From positions 1 to 21,320 of IMG/VR virus record IMGVR_UViG_3300044631_001109: 21,320 bases of DNA, one strand, 5' to 3'. The notes beneath the pieces are model-generated. The model did no database searches. It was given only the letters and a program-made list of their open reading frames with translations, and was not told the DNA's origin. Source of the DNA: a virus. This document shows, one piece after another, positions 5,756 through 18,237 of the stretch. A program made the translations under genes and the position numbers. Position 1 is the first letter of the stretch. Every line of letters begins with the position of its first letter.

Positions 5756-6373
5756 ATGGCAGCAGGATTAGGTTTTAAAACTTTTAATACTGGAGATGTT
5801 TTAACAGCCAGTGATGTAAATGGCTATTTAATGCAAGGAATTTTAGTTTTTGCAAGTGAAGCCGCAAGAAATTCCGCAATTACCTCACCGCAAGAGGGGC
5901 AATTTGCTTACACCAAAGATAATAATAGTTTGTGGTATTACACAGGCTCAGCCTGGGTTGCATCAGGTGCAACAGGTGATATTGAAGGTGTAACTGCTGG
6001 AGCAGGTTTATCAGGTGGCGGAACCTCTGGAACTGTTACTCTAAATATTAATACTCCTTATGTTACTAAAACTGATAATTACACAATTGCTAGCGGCGAT
6101 GAGGGTAAATTATTCTCAATGAATGCTGCTACTACTAAATCATTCTCAATTCCAACTGATGCAACTTTTGATTTTGCAATAGGAACAACTATAAATTTTG
6201 TGTGGGTAACTGGTGCAGGTCAGCCTGATATTAAAGCAGTTACACCAGGAACAACTACAATTATTTCAACAGGTGCTTCCGCAGTTGCTCCTAAATTAAG
6301 AGTAGCGAACTCAGCCGCAACTTGCCTTAAACTAGCAGCAAATTCTTGGTTAGTAGTGGGCGATATTGCCTAA
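5756..6373 (+). CDS. Tail fibre-like / minor tail protein
   Basis: The start at 5756 has AAGGAG seven to twelve bases upstream. The 205-residue protein opens with GLGFKTFNTGDVLTASDVNG followed by YLMQGILVF, a start seen in many phage fibre or tail-tip proteins. It continues with SPQEGQFAYTKDNNSLWYYT and GSAWV, a beta motif recurring in tail fibres. A Gly-rich linker (TAGAGLSGGGTSGTVTLN) precedes a beta-rich C-terminal domain (about residues 105-205). It ends with TAATG into the next gene. It probably assembles as a trimeric fibre or collar on the tail tip; receptor binding is possible but not shown. Confidence 0.65.
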   Translation: MAAGLGFKTFNTGDVLTASDVNGYLMQGILVFASEAARNSAITSPQEGQFAYTKDNNSLWYYTGSAWVASGATGDIEGVTAGAGLSGGGTSGTVTLNINTPYVTKTDNYTIASGDEGKLFSMNAATTKSFSIPTDATFDFAIGTTINFVWVTGAGQPDIKAVTPGTTTIISTGASAVAPKLRVANSAATCLKLAANSWLVVGDIA

Positions 6374-6933
6374 TGCCAATACTTGGAATTTTTGCATCAT
6401 CCAGATTAACAGCCCCCGCAACCGCTTATGAGTCTATTGCTACTACAACTGTTGGCTCAGGTGGAACTTCAAATATAATATTTAGTTCAATACCTTCTAC
6501 CTATACACATTTACAAATTAGAGGTATTGCTAGATGTACTGCTAGTACTAGCGACATTGATCTTTATATGCAATTTAATAGCGATACTGGAAATAACTAT
6601 AATTGGCATTTCGTTTACGGTGATGGTGGTTCTGCTGCCACTTCCAGTGGAGTGCCAGCCGATTACATAGATACACTTAGAACTACTGGTGCTTCAAGTA
6701 CTGCCAATCGTTTTGGTGCAGGTGTTATAGATATTTTAGATTATACAAATACCAATAAATTTACAACTGCAAGAATTTTAACTGGTCAAGATCAAAACGG
6801 TAGCGGCTTAGTTATTTTTACAAGCGGTGCTTGGCGCAATACAGCCGCAATTACTTCTATAAAATTTTATTACCCTACTGGCAGTATTGCTGAAAATTCG
6901 CAACTTGCCCTATACGGAATTAAAGGTGCTTAA
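6373..6933 (+). CDS. Tail tip / fibre paralogue 1
   Basis: I choose ATG 6373, which overlaps the previous stop (TAATG), giving 186 residues. An upstream in-frame start at 6346 would lie inside the preceding gene. After a short N-terminal extension (MPILGIFASSRLTAPATA) the domain runs YESIATTTVGSGGTSNIIFS, then SIPSTYTHLQIRG, MQFNSDTGNNYNWHFVYGDG, and ends WRNTAAITSIKFY with LYGIKGA. The same framework recurs in the next two genes. The beta-rich, Ser/Thr-rich composition suggests a jelly-roll-like tail-tip domain. A receptor-binding or glycan-binding role is inferred from position and from its multiplication. Confidence 0.65.
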   Translation: MPILGIFASSRLTAPATAYESIATTTVGSGGTSNIIFSSIPSTYTHLQIRGIARCTASTSDIDLYMQFNSDTGNNYNWHFVYGDGGSAATSSGVPADYIDTLRTTGASSTANRFGAGVIDILDYTNTNKFTTARILTGQDQNGSGLVIFTSGAWRNTAAITSIKFYYPTGSIAENSQLALYGIKGA

Positions 6934-7440
6934 ATGACAGCAACTTATGAAAAGATAGCGACAACTACTTTAGGTAGTGCTCAGGCGACAGTTTCTTTTA
7001 GCACAATTAGTGGTAGTTATACCGATTTGGTTTTAATTTCCAATGTAGATATAACTGCAGCAGGTGCATCTATAAATATAAGATTTAATTCTGACACAGG
7101 TAGCAATTATTCTTATACTACTATGTATGGTAATGGTACAAGCGCATTATCTACTAGGGGTTCTAATGTAACTTCATCTTATATTGCAGGTTTTGTTGCA
7201 CCTAATACGGCATTAGAAACAGTTGTAATTACTAACATACAAAACTATTCAAACACTACTACTAATAAAACTTTTCTTAGTCGTGCCAATAGAGCCAGCG
7301 CCAATAACTCACCAGGCGCAGAAGCGTTGGTAGGTTTATGGCGCAACACTGCTGCTATAACTTCTATTACTTTAGCGGCTGATTCTGGAAATATTGATAC
7401 AGGCTCAACCTTTACACTTTACGGAATTAAGGCGGAATAA
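6934..7440 (+). CDS. Tail tip / fibre paralogue 2
   Basis: This 168-residue protein follows immediately after the previous stop. It repeats the family framework: YEKIATTTLGSAQATVSFST, SGSYTDLVLIS, IRFNSDTGSNYSYTTMYGNG, WRNTAAITSITL and a final TLYGIKAE. The middle (about residues 65-125) differs from both neighbours, while the ends are conserved, as expected when the variable part contacts receptors. It lacks the N-terminal extension of paralogue 1. It is coupled to the next gene by TAATG (7438-7442). The function is inferred from context. Confidence 0.62.
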   Translation: MTATYEKIATTTLGSAQATVSFSTISGSYTDLVLISNVDITAAGASINIRFNSDTGSNYSYTTMYGNGTSALSTRGSNVTSSYIAGFVAPNTALETVVITNIQNYSNTTTNKTFLSRANRASANNSPGAEALVGLWRNTAAITSITLAADSGNIDTGSTFTLYGIKAE

Positions 7441-7946
7441 TGGCAACTACATATACTTTAATTTCATCCGTAACAGTGGGGGCTGGTGGTGCGGCTAATA
7501 TAGAATTTACTTCTATACCTTCTACATATACAGATTTAGTGTTAAAACTATCTGGCAGAAGCAATAGAAGTGAAACTACTGAATTTTTAAATATAAATTT
7601 AAATTCTAGTGCTAGCAATTTTGATAATAAAACTTTAGAGTCTGCTGGTACTAGTGTTTACAGTGGTTCTTATGGCACTTATATTGGTTCAATACCTGCG
7701 GCAACTGCTACTGCTAGTACATTTGGTTCATTTGAAATATACATACCAAATTATGCAGGAAACAATTTTAAATCTGTAAGTTCTGATTCAGTAAGTGAAA
7801 ACAATTTAGCGCAGAATTATCAAGACTTAATTGCAATTCTTTGGTCACAAACTGCGGCAATAACATCTATTAAATTAGTACCTAGCAATGCTTCAAATTT
7901 TGTGCAATACAGCAATGCTTATCTATATGGAATATCTAACGCATAA
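7440..7946 (+). CDS. Tail tip / fibre paralogue 3
   Basis: This third tandem member has 168 residues. It keeps TYTLISSVTVGAGGAANIEF, TSIPSTYTDLVLKLSGRS, LWSQTAAITSIKL and a final LYGISNA, but has lost the FN.DTG.NY block seen in the other two (here LNINLNSSASNFDNKT). It is the most diverged of the three. Position, coupling (TAATG) and composition support a virion tail-tip role. It could be an alternative receptor-binding module, or a structural partner of the first two in a hetero-oligomer. Confidence 0.6.
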   Translation: MATTYTLISSVTVGAGGAANIEFTSIPSTYTDLVLKLSGRSNRSETTEFLNINLNSSASNFDNKTLESAGTSVYSGSYGTYIGSIPAATATASTFGSFEIYIPNYAGNNFKSVSSDSVSENNLAQNYQDLIAILWSQTAAITSIKLVPSNASNFVQYSNAYLYGISNA

Positions 7947-12850: not shown

Positions 12851-12897
12851 TTTCTTACCTTCCTTTTGTGGGCTACCTGGTGTATCCCAATAAGATA

Positions 12898-12926
12898 AAT
12901 GTATAGACATTTGTCTATCTAGTCAA
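12898..12926 (-). promoter_or_regulatory. Leftward promoter 1 with operator in the spacer
   Basis: On the minus strand TTGACT (12926-12921) and TACATT (12903-12898) are separated by 17 bases, fitting actinobacterial -35 and TANNNT -10 boxes. The spacer is mostly an inverted repeat, ATAGACA-TT-TGTCTAT (12903-12918), so a bound repressor would block polymerase. The 24 bases at 12886-12909, covering the -10 box and the left half of the repeat, are repeated exactly at promoter 2. Confidence 0.75.
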
Positions 12927-12930
12927 GTAC

Positions 12931-13164
12931 CTAGCCCAAAATATCCTTCGGCGTGTCGATCCCTGCTACCGCTCGCTTAGCCTGGCTCTGATACCCCAAA
13001 TTCAGCATCCAAGGGGGTACTGGCCGCAGGGGGCGCTGGCGGCTGAGTAGAACCAAGCCAAAGGCGACCCAACCGCCAAACCAGCCTAGGATCGCCCATA
13101 GCAATACTCGCCTGCCCTTGCCGATTGCAACCAGGGCTGTAAGAACTACCCAAAGAAATTTCAC
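12931..13164 (-). CDS. Small membrane protein, last of the leftward operon (77 aa)
   Basis: This starts at GTG 13164, which overlaps the stop of the ribbon-helix-helix gene (GTGA), with AAAGGA about nine bases upstream. Two hydrophobic segments are visible (MKFLWVVLTALVAIG and LLWAILGWFGGWVAFGLVLL), separated by KGRR, followed by a Pro/Arg-rich tail (RQRPLRPVPPWMLNLGYQSQ). The gene is visibly richer in GC than the genes around it, which hints at a separate origin. Coupling to a DNA-binding protein is notable, but no function can be assigned. Confidence 0.6.
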   Translation of the reverse strand: MKFLWVVLTALVAIGKGRRVLLWAILGWFGGWVAFGLVLLSRQRPLRPVPPWMLNLGYQSQAKRAVAGIDTPKDILG

Positions 13165-14346: not shown

Positions 14347-14528
14347 TGTTTTGCCTTCCTTTAGGGCGCCTTGCCCAATAAGATAAATGTATAGACACCT
14401 GTCTATCCTGTCAAGTACCCCAAGAATCCAGGCTTTCGGCGTGTCTTGACGCGTCGCCCCTGCCAAATGTCGGTTATGTGTGCCACAATAAAGCCAAGCC
14501 TAGGAACCTAGGTTTAAAAGGGGGGTTT
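14347..14528. other. Divergent control region between leftward and rightward operons
   Basis: This 182-base gap separates the leftward cluster from the rightward early genes. Besides promoter 2 it holds CCTAGGAACCTAGG (14499-14512), two palindromic hexamers close to the rightward gene start, a TTGACG box at 14446-14451, and a G-rich ribosome site (14518-14525). I could not find a -10 box at normal spacing for a rightward promoter, so the early promoter is unresolved. Confidence 0.6.
14386..14414 (-). promoter_or_regulatory. Leftward promoter 2 with operator in the spacer
   Basis: On the minus strand a perfect TTGACA -35 (14414-14409) and TACATT -10 (14391-14386) are 17 bases apart. Between them lies ATAGACA-CC-TGTCTAT (14391-14406), the same inverted repeat as in promoter 1 with a different centre. 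It drives the eight-gene leftward run 14346-12931. Similarity to the promoter 1 region continues upstream (GTCAAGTACC, then TTCGGCGTGTC). Confidence 0.8.
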
Positions 14529-16529: not shown

Positions 16530-16620
16530 TACAATCATCCCTGAACCATTCGATGACTTACCACCATTCAACCCCATAACGCCAGAGGAAGGCGATGACG
16601 ATTACGAGGATGATGAATAA
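16522..16620 (+). CDS. Very acidic micro-protein (32 aa)
   Basis: ATG 16522 lies inside the end of the previous gene, with GGAG eight bases upstream (16511-16514). The frame reads MSSTIIPEPFDDLPPFNPIT followed by PEEGDDDYEDDE, ending at 16620. It overlaps both neighbours in different frames. The Asp/Glu-rich tail and Pro-rich middle suggest a disordered peptide. It may be a protein-interaction or DNA-mimic tail, or only a coupling peptide. Existence is likely but not certain. Confidence 0.5.
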   Translation: MSSTIIPEPFDDLPPFNPITPEEGDDDYEDDE

Positions 16621-17350
16621 CTTAGTAGCACCCAATAAACCAAGTAAACAAATGGCAATGGATATTGCTAAAATTATTACTGATGCTGGTACTTGGACAC
16701 CTAGAAGTAAACAAATTTCTATTGGCCCATCAGAAATAGGACACGATTGCTTACGCAGACTTGCCTATAAATTAATTGATATTCCAAAGATAAACGAAGG
16801 CAGTAGCGGTAACTGGGCTGCCCAAGTTGGAACTGCAATTCATTCACACTTAGCCCAAATCTTTGAAAAGATTGAAGGTTTCCAGGTAGAGCAAAAAGTG
16901 CAAATCAGAGGCGGATTATCTGGCACTGTTGATCTCTACGATGAAGTTCGTGGAATTGTAATGGATTGGAAAACAACTGGCACTTCAGGATTAAAAGAAC
17001 GCCGAAGCAGTGGTGCTACATCTCAACAACAAATCCAAGTTCAATTATATGGTTATGGCTTAGCACAACAGGGAATGCTAGTTAATCAAGTTGCTTTAAT
17101 CTTTTTACCAACATCAGGGTCGATAGATGATATGCACATTGAACTTTATGATTATGATGAGAAAATGGCATTAGGCGCATTAGAAAGATTAGATAATTTA
17201 TATGCGCTGCTCACTTCAATAGATGTTGAGCAGTTTCCGTCAATGTGGGGAGTAATTCCAAAGGTGAGCAGCCGCCTTTGTAATTACTGCCCATATTTCC
17301 AACCATTTAGTAAGGATGAATCAGTGGCTTGCGCTGGAGATACAATATGA
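16595..17350 (+). CDS. Cas4/RecB-like PD-(D/E)XK exonuclease with Fe-S cluster
   Basis: This 251-residue nuclease has the motifs GTAIHSHL (H83/H85), GTVDLYD (D113), VMDWKTTG (D124, K126) and QVQLYGY (Q150), the metal-binding core of RecB-family nucleases. Four Cys, C52 (HDCLRRLAY) plus C229, C232 (LCNYCPYF) and C246, match the 4Fe-4S layout of Cas4 and AddB nucleases. It probably resects DNA ends in phage recombination together with the YqaJ-tail-like protein and a candidate ssDNA-binding protein. ATG 16595 has GAGGA five bases upstream, but the Mets at 16610 or 16613 are also possible. No cas1 or CRISPR array is nearby, so it is not a CRISPR gene here. Confidence 0.87.
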   Translation: MTITRMMNNLVAPNKPSKQMAMDIAKIITDAGTWTPRSKQISIGPSEIGHDCLRRLAYKLIDIPKINEGSSGNWAAQVGTAIHSHLAQIFEKIEGFQVEQKVQIRGGLSGTVDLYDEVRGIVMDWKTTGTSGLKERRSSGATSQQQIQVQLYGYGLAQQGMLVNQVALIFLPTSGSIDDMHIELYDYDEKMALGALERLDNLYALLTSIDVEQFPSMWGVIPKVSSRLCNYCPYFQPFSKDESVACAGDTI

Positions 17351-17481
17351 GCCTTGATGAAGCAACAATAAATGATTTAAAAAAGTTGAAGGAGGAATTA
17401 GAATCAAATCTAATTCATCAGCAACAAATGCAAGACCCAAACCAAAACACAAACCAAAAAGAAAGTGGGGAAAGAGAATGA
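17347..17481 (+). CDS. Small Gln/Glu-rich helical protein (44 aa)
   Basis: ATG 17347 overlaps the exonuclease stop, and the 44-codon frame ends in an ATGA overlap with the next gene at 17478-17481. The sequence begins MSLDEATINDLKKLKEELES and goes on to a Gln/Asn-rich tail (HQQQMQDPNQNTNQKESGER). An N-terminal coiled coil followed by a disordered tail is likely. Coupling on both sides supports it as a gene. No function can be inferred beyond the recombination setting. Confidence 0.6.
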   Translation: MSLDEATINDLKKLKEELESNLIHQQQMQDPNQNTNQKESGERE

Positions 17482-17936
17482 CCTTCTCAGCACCATCAAT
17501 GAGCGAAAACGGCCCAAAGGTTGCAGACTTAGCAGGGCAGTTATTAATAATCACTCCAACTGATTACAAAACAGGCATCAAAACAATTCACGGCGACGCC
17601 GAGGCAGTTGAAGTATCTTTGGTAAATCTTGATACCAATAAAAATTACGACGGCGTTTTATTTTTCAATGTTGCACTACGCAACTCTTTAAAACAAAAGA
17701 TAGGTCAAAAGGTTCTAGCCCGAATTGGGCAGGGAACTGCAAAGCCTGGTAAATCTGCTCCTTGGATTTTATTAGATGCAACTACTGATGCGGCTGCTCT
17801 TGCAAAAGCAAATGCTTATTTAGGTTCAGCCCCTGCTCCTGCTGCTGCGCAAGCATCGGCTGTGCCTGCGGCGAATGGCACCATTACACCTGAAGTTGCA
17901 GCACTACTTGCTCAATTAGGAGCAACTAAAGCATAA
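17478..17936 (+). CDS. Candidate ssDNA-binding (OB-fold-like) protein
   Basis: This 152-residue protein has a beta-rich first two thirds (GQLLIITPTDYKTGIKTIHG, AVEVSLVNLDTNKNYDGVLF, QKVLARIGQGTAKPGKSAPW) that looks like a single OB barrel. It is followed by an Ala/Pro linker (SAPAPAAAQASAVPAANG) and a short helical tip (PEVAALLAQLGATKA). Globular domain, flexible linker and interaction tip are the layout of single-stranded DNA-binding proteins, although the tip is not acidic. Its place after an exonuclease and before the methyltransferase and primase-helicase supports a replication or recombination role. The call is inferred rather than motif-proven. Confidence 0.5.
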   Translation: MTFSAPSMSENGPKVADLAGQLLIITPTDYKTGIKTIHGDAEAVEVSLVNLDTNKNYDGVLFFNVALRNSLKQKIGQKVLARIGQGTAKPGKSAPWILLDATTDAAALAKANAYLGSAPAPAAAQASAVPAANGTITPEVAALLAQLGATKA

Positions 17937-17942
17937 ATAATT

Positions 17943-17976
17943 CTTGGCGGTTTTAACCTTCCTTTTAACTGCCAAG
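17943..17976 (+). other. 10-bp hairpin before the tRNA-like element
   Basis: CTTGGCGGTT (17943-17952) pairs with AACTGCCAAG (17967-17976), with one G-U pair, around a 14-base loop. It lies between the stop of the preceding gene and the cloverleaf, three bases before the latter. No T run follows, so it is not a normal terminator. It could be a processing or folding partner of the RNA downstream. Confidence 0.6.
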
Positions 17977-17979
17977 ATA

Positions 17980-18037
17980 GCAAGCGCCTGGCGGCTTTCC
18001 TGGGGGAAAAGTTGGTTCGATTCCAACGCTTGCACCA
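17980..18037 (+). ncRNA. Compact tRNA-like cloverleaf ending in CCA
   Basis: The 58 bases fold into a closed four-way junction. A 6-bp acceptor (GCAAGC 17980-17985 with GCTTGC 18028-18033) encloses arm 1 (GCC-TGGC-GGC, 17986-17995), arm 2 (TTTCC-TGGG-GGAAA, 17996-18009) and a canonical T arm (GTTGG-TTCGATT-CCAAC, 18011-18027). These are followed by A and an encoded CCA (18035-18037). The T loop has the invariant TTC-purine-A, and arm 1's loop offers the GG that normally docks with it. It is too short for a normal tRNA: the D and anticodon arms are shrunken. An alternative fold gives a 17-base arm with loop CTGGGGG (GGG, Pro-type) but steals a base of the T stem. It could be a tRNA-like RNA, a decayed tRNA, or an attachment core matching a host tRNA 3' end. 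Confidence 0.6.
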
Positions 18038-18066
18038 TAAATTTCAACTCGGATCGGGGGTTTGTA

Positions 18067-18237
18067 GTGCCACTCTATGATTTCTATTGTAAAAAATGTG
18101 ATGCAAATTTTGAATTGCAAAAAAGTATGAATGATGAAAACAAAGATGCAATTTGTGAGAAATGTAATTCACAAATGAATAGAGTTTACTTTCCAGCCCC
18201 TGCAATATTTAAAGGCTCTGGTTGGGGTGGTCAATGA
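18067..18237 (+). CDS. FmdB-type zinc ribbon protein (56 aa)
   Basis: I start at GTG 18067, six bases after a GGGGG ribosome site. The longer frame from 17944 would translate through the tRNA-like structure. The protein begins MPLYDFYCKKCDANFELQKS and has zinc ligands C8, C11, C30 and C33, then RVYFPAPAIFKGSGWGG. This is the standard layout of the FmdB/CxxC-ribbon family (MP.Y.Y.C..C...F, then FKGSGF). These small proteins are common in actinophages; a DNA- or RNA-binding role is assumed but untested. The stop overlaps the methyltransferase start. Confidence 0.85.
   Translation: MPLYDFYCKKCDANFELQKSMNDENKDAICEKCNSQMNRVYFPAPAIFKGSGWGGQ

Follow-up and report, generated by a model that had tools for sequence, protein, structure and literature searches.

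A covarying, non-decoding tRNA-like RNA element behind a probable single-stranded-DNA-binding-like gene in actinophages

The window, the whole 21,320-base virus record analysed here, carries a WhiB gene that marks it as actinophage DNA. In its replication gene cluster, a PDDEXK exonuclease gene (16595–17350) is followed by a phrog_870 gene, an FmdB-like zinc-ribbon gene, a cytosine methyltransferase gene and a Prim-Pol/AAA gene. The 130-base gap between the phrog_870 and FmdB-like genes (17937–18066) is occupied by a hairpin and a tRNA-like cloverleaf, laid out as follows.

17478–17936, plus strand: phrog_870 gene, probably encoding a single-stranded-DNA-binding-like protein (PHROG match 2.8e-26, annotated function unknown)
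17943–17976, plus strand: upstream hairpin from fold prediction, 10 bp, with loop TTAACCTTCCTTTT containing CCUUCC; no T-run behind it
17957–17962, plus strand: CCUUCC in the hairpin loop, candidate kissing partner of the GGGG loop by complementarity in almost all lineages
17980–18035, plus strand: tRNA-like cloverleaf, the family core, ending in the conserved AC (covariance model and covariation)
17980–17985, plus strand: acceptor stem, 5′ strand, pairing with 18028–18033; compensatory changes at all six pairs, the innermost often unpaired
17986–17995, plus strand: D-like arm GCC-TGGC-GGC with GG kept in the loop (58 of 62 distinct elements)
17996–18009, plus strand: middle hairpin at the anticodon position, TTTCC-TGGG-GGAAA, non-decoding; GGGG in 55 of 62, stem covaries
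18011–18027, plus strand: T arm GTTGG-TTCGATT-CCAAC with a 5-bp stem; all cells paired in alignments A3 and A5
18028–18033, plus strand: acceptor stem, 3′ strand, covarying with 17980–17985
18034–18037, plus strand: A-C-C-A, of which only A-C is conserved family-wide (ACCA in 3 of 62)
18067–18237, plus strand: downstream FmdB-like zinc-ribbon gene (Pfam Zn_ribbon_8, 5e-11), with a GTG start and a GGGGG Shine-Dalgarno site

We assign the phrog_870 product as SSB-like with moderate confidence. Its AlphaFold model (mean pLDDT 70, pTM 0.53) has the element order β-β-β-α-β-β, and the top Foldseek match of this model is the PRD1 SSB P12, with a probability of 0.95 but an E value of 0.054; HMM searches against PDB and Pfam returned no convincing match.

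In the predicted structure, positions 17943–17952 pair with 17967–17976, including one G–U pair, and a 3-nt spacer, ATA, leads to the four-arm fold, which in the window spans 58 nt (17980–18037). Minimum and centroid folds concur on hairpin plus cloverleaf at −36.1 kcal/mol (z = −3.0), confirming the arrangement described in the initial annotation, a 10-bp hairpin and, three bases later, a 58-base four-arm fold; 2 of 200 shuffles folded as well. ARAGORN called no tRNA or tmRNA at the element itself in the window or in relatives, and Rfam 15, applied at gathering score to the window and 8 diverged loci, placed no family on it. The best related Rfam score was 22 bits for tRNA-Sec, against a cut-off of 47. 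Between 16500 and 18400 we found no terminator-like site, that is, no GC hairpin followed by a U-run as in an intrinsic terminator.

Relatives were collected by protein search with phrog_870, yielding several hundred viral contigs. In freshwater lineages with protein identity down to ~60%, an element of the same shape but mostly different sequence lies directly behind phrog_870, its acceptor strands pairing as GCAAGC/GCTTGC, GAAATG/CATTTC, GACATT/AATGTC, GGCGTT/AACGCC, GTGTTG/CAACAC, GCGCAG/CTGCGC, GAGGT/ACCTC and others. A strict parser recovered the complete motif from 78 of 131 distinct 3′ regions, compared with a mean of 0.05 in dinucleotide shuffles, and from none of the 131 on the opposite strand. 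Among 37 distinct cores of acceptor and T arm (alignment A3), 97.1% of cells pair, double, compensatory changes occupy 149 cells versus 43 in shuffles, and the covariation score is 0.935 versus 0.19 shuffled and 0.13–0.19 slid; the acceptor half of these figures is partly circular, because acceptor 5′ strands were located through complementarity, the T stem needed only 4 of its 5 pairs, and the shuffle control on the parser (78 of 131 against 0.05) bounds the bias. T stems contain 5 G–U pairs and no A–C pair among 310 cells, with a parser that tolerated few mismatches.

When 12 of these sequences were aligned at full length with MAFFT, the covariation score of the cloverleaf was 0.624 versus 0.19, and the middle hairpin, which was never a selection criterion, changed on both sides at all five of its pairs; the small D-like arm had no covariation support in this alignment. 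A covariance model (R1) built from those 12 sequences, with the window subfamily left out, matches the window at 37.9 bits (E = 6.8e-9). It also matches nearly every relative once, right behind phrog_870, with one main copy per contig; whole-genome searches of three genomes gave marginal matches only, 13 prophage loci gave no match to R1, and a DNA search in cultured phages gave no match. The cloverleaf fold is real, selected and more than chance, and the independent RNA proposed in the initial annotation is decisively borne out by the compensatory changes in its homologues.

What this family keeps of a tRNA, and what it discards, can be counted over 62 distinct elements. The T loop reads UUCRANN or UGCAANN in all 62 (UUCRA/UGCAA was a search filter), GG appears early in the middle part, as the D-loop GG, in 58, and GGGG is present in 55. 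The acceptor begins with G in 58 elements and is preceded by A or C in 60, and the acceptor/T stack is mostly 11 bp and sometimes 12. Behind the acceptor, 61 elements have unpaired AC and one has GC, and any of the four bases may come next; ACCA is present in three, CCA is not encoded in 59 and even CC is rarely kept. The middle loop varies from 4 to 12 nt, with GCAA replacing GGGG in one group, and an element with such a variable middle hairpin and a loop that is usually GGGG cannot decode. The tRNA elbow and stack are thus retained, and decoding and CCA are not. This agrees with the initial description of a T loop and D-loop GG able to form the elbow, of acceptor and T arms and of an anticodon arm unfit for decoding; the CCA end included in that description is not a family property, and its emphasis on CCA-dependent handling is unsupported. 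Together these elements constitute an RNA family without an Rfam entry in phages of freshwater actinobacteria, hosts that we infer; a literature search of open-licence papers found no description of such a family.

The initial annotation did not notice that the element always stands behind one gene, that the CUUCC and GGGG loops are complementary, or that related phages have real tRNAs in its place. In one lineage, a search of the collection with RNA sequence only found phrog_870 directly upstream in all 24 newly numbered loci with enough upstream DNA. The downstream gene varies (FmdB, cytosine methyltransferase and others) and the element stays, so the element is no leader dedicated to a single gene. 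In L060 and L077 a 46-codon ORF lies between phrog_870 and an intact hairpin–cloverleaf, so hairpin and cloverleaf move together. We also considered whether the element belongs to FmdB and rejected this, because FmdB homologues without phrog_870 are without the element as well.

Streptomyces-type phages also have a strong hairpin at this site, and behind it lie canonical tRNAs in L228 and L231 (Thr CGT) and in L268 (Leu CAA). In L226, L230, phiSAJS1 and Xkcd426 the site holds tRNA-like RNAs in which the anticodon arm is replaced by an extended hairpin; the Streptomyces-phage versions score as tRNA in Rfam. At this position, many or most of the other cultured phages with phrog_870, and many prophages, show nothing beyond a strong hairpin. 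Descent of the element from a tRNA is likely.

In the cultured phages phiSAJS1 (L376, about 821–944) and Xkcd426 (L377, about 951–1055), these stretches behind phrog_870 have canonical acceptor, D and T arms and are unannotated. The Streptomyces phage YDN12 (L143:2490–2600) and L227 have, after the same gene, a bigger tRNA-like cassette that includes two hairpins resembling T arms, and BabyGotBac (L134), a close relative of YDN12, has no cassette at that place.

The hairpin and the cloverleaf may also touch. Nearly all relatives have CCUUCC or CCUUUC in the upstream loop, complementary to GGGG(AAG) of the middle part in almost all lineages, with L030 and L281 as misfits. In L317 and L318 the loops are swapped, purine-rich upstream and pyrimidine-rich in the middle arm (AGGGG/UCCCU), and L319, closely related to them, has AGAAG/UUUCU and so differs by two compensatory changes; only L317–L319 give real loop–loop covariation. 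In a permutation test over 27 hand-curated lineages, cognate loops paired no better than mixed ones (p = 0.10, and 0.81 without L290), a null result explained by motifs that are nearly invariant. We regard a kissing contact between the upstream and middle loops as likely but not established.

In L244–L248, L267 and L344–L349, the phrog_870 3′ region is without the tRNA-like part; its strong hairpins carry CAGGGG/TAGGGG and pyrimidine-rich loops, which may make the same loop–loop contact without a cloverleaf. Downstream of the element, ARAGORN or Rfam reports a further unusual tRNA gene in several contigs (L174:3615–3690, L282:3582–3657, L019:3093–3168, L030:5538–5613 and L066:4778–4849); the one in L019 overlaps an ORF and may be spurious. 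These have a 6-nt loop on a 6-bp anticodon stem or an 8-nt loop YNUUCCAR, several encode CCA, and the UUCC in the loop would be complementary to the GGGGAA loop in the main element.

We consider it reasonably probable that phages of abundant freshwater actinobacteria carry an undescribed RNA family derived from a tRNA that now serves as a structural device without decoding. The device would consist of a kissing-loop hairpin and a cloverleaf lacking its anticodon, built into the mRNA of the ssb operon, and canonical tRNAs, tRNAs with a hairpin arm and miniatures of ~53–76 nt would be successive stages at one genomic site.

The element most likely marks a point at which the joint phage mRNA is cut or controlled. 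For its function, the reading that we favour, tentatively and at somewhat short of an even chance, is a cis-acting tRNA-like processing element, or tRNA punctuation, in the mRNA of the ssb operon, with RNase P as the probable nuclease. The element would be transcribed together with the ssb-like gene, and host RNase P would recognise the stacked acceptor/T arm and cut just before G17980 (17979/17980); a second, 3′ cut would fall behind the conserved A-C. The ssb-like mRNA would be freed with the upstream hairpin as its protective 3′ end and the downstream gene would gain its own mRNA, allowing replication-gene products to be made in different amounts, and CUUCC/GGGG loop pairing would tie hairpin and cloverleaf into one compact fold. 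A fixed position, an upstream hairpin that stays constant, a downstream gene that is exchanged and a shape kept without decoding are together best accounted for by operon punctuation. The G at +1 in 58 of 62 elements and the 11–12-bp acceptor/T stack resemble features of RNase P substrates. Known RNase P substrates include tRNA-like structures, polycistronic mRNAs and, among phage RNAs, C4 and M3; T4 gene 32 was the earliest mRNA reported to be cut by this enzyme (PMC11143913).

Other features argue against RNase P. The single-stranded leader from hairpin to acceptor is only about 2–10 nt (3 in the window), and RNase P usually likes a longer one. Of RCCA, the RCC that pairs with RNase P RNA survives only as A-C. 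At −1, 60 of 62 elements have A or C where U is preferred, and RNase P has no need of the GGGG and CUUCC motifs. The function is dispensable or replaceable, since strong hairpins are all that most cultured phages with phrog_870 have at the site.

Two rivals likewise place the function in the RNA. A cloverleaf excised, matured and accumulating as a stand-alone, trans-acting small RNA, a non-decoding tRNA mimic serving as a decoy for EF-Tu, the CCA enzyme or a defence nuclease, would explain why elbow, acceptor and T arm, the parts gripped by such proteins, are kept while the decoding arm is free to vary, and true tRNAs do occupy the same site in related phages. We consider it unlikely: the fixed place behind one gene, the constant upstream hairpin and the single main copy per phage point to action in cis, CCA is unencoded in 59 of 62 elements and 11-bp stacks are usual. 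The decoy or primer role envisaged in the initial annotation gains no support over a cis element. It is similarly improbable that the element controls translation in cis without being cut, with the ssb-like protein or another factor binding it and CUUCC/GGGG pairing switching access to a Shine-Dalgarno site. Such control has a parallel in T4, in which gp32, the product of the SSB gene of that phage, gene 32, autoregulates its own mRNA; moreover, the GGGG loop resembles the GGGGGAA Shine-Dalgarno sites of these phages and CUUCC/CUUUCC resembles the 3′ end of 16S rRNA. However, the loops of L317–L319 are swapped or changed and still complementary to each other, indicating that mutual pairing is kept and not resemblance to Shine-Dalgarno or anti-Shine-Dalgarno sequences, and the downstream gene is not constant.

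The remaining two rivals deny the RNA a role. Location in the replication gene cluster and a downstream gene that differs among phages would suit an element acting as DNA, such as a replication origin, a recombination hot spot or an attP copied from a host tRNA, but the motif lies on the coding strand only (0 of 131 opposite), and the T stems admit G–U and not A–C pairs (5 versus 0 in 310 cells, few mismatches being tolerated by the parser); we judge this highly unlikely. The attP version, raised in the initial annotation, was rejected as unlikely on three grounds: the 5′ strand of the acceptor changes in concert with its 3′ strand from lineage to lineage, the integrase gene is 9 kb away, and the 3′ part of the element, with up to 3 mismatches allowed, has no match in any of 396 Actinomycetota genomes. 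A decayed phage tRNA without present function, suggested by the true tRNAs that Streptomyces phages have at this position, is refuted as a complete explanation by strong compensatory evolution across very diverged lineages, and we give it almost no weight; of this earlier proposal, the tRNA ancestry is the part that holds up as likely.

Among known systems, the RNAs cut by RNase P share with this element a tRNA-like shape in a longer transcript between operon genes, and one of these precedents is itself an ssb mRNA. They include T4 gene 32 mRNA, polycistronic operons (Li and Altman 2003), P1/P7 C4 RNA and M3 RNA (PMC11143913). Those are single biochemical cases, whereas the element here belongs to a covarying family in which the tRNA elbow is complete, the gene context is fixed and cleavage is a prediction. 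The 3′ tRNA-like structures of plant RNA viruses, such as that of TYMV, are also viral and tRNA-shaped, with acceptor and T arm in a non-decoding role. They sit at genome ends, have a pseudoknotted acceptor and are aminoacylated at CCA; in contrast, the phage element is internal to the mRNA of a double-stranded DNA phage, normally without CCA, and has an ordinary acceptor. With phage tRNA genes (RF00005), canonical examples of which stand at the same site in related phages, it shares the cloverleaf, T loop and D-loop GG. It differs in its 6-bp acceptor, minimal D arm, absent anticodon and variable loops and sub-cut-off tRNA score: of the marks of RF00005 it has the elbow, and lacks a curated-threshold or ARAGORN call, a 7-nt decoding loop and a 12-bp acceptor/T stack with CCA. 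tmRNA (ssrA) likewise has a tRNA-like domain without an anticodon arm, but the element has no tag reading frame and no conserved CCA, is a single short piece and occurs in another context.

If our interpretation is correct, shape rather than decoding is what phages maintain in this tRNA-like RNA family, its likely tRNA ancestry can be seen at one site, and it offers a testable case of tRNA punctuation in phage mRNA. Because the cultured phages phiSAJS1 and Xkcd426 carry an unannotated relative, a role for RNase P in phage mRNA processing is directly testable. tRNA finders and Rfam miss such elements.

Elsewhere in the window, a 46-nt repeat occurs at 12886–12931 and 14374–14419 with 91% identity. 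On the minus strand it resembles a sigma-70 promoter, TTGACT-17-TACATT, with the dyad TAGACA..TGTCTA within the spacer, and is likely to be a shared repressor operator. The window also holds tandem paralogous genes, two encoding similar proteins at 576–986 and 986–1393 and three similar ones at 6346–7946.
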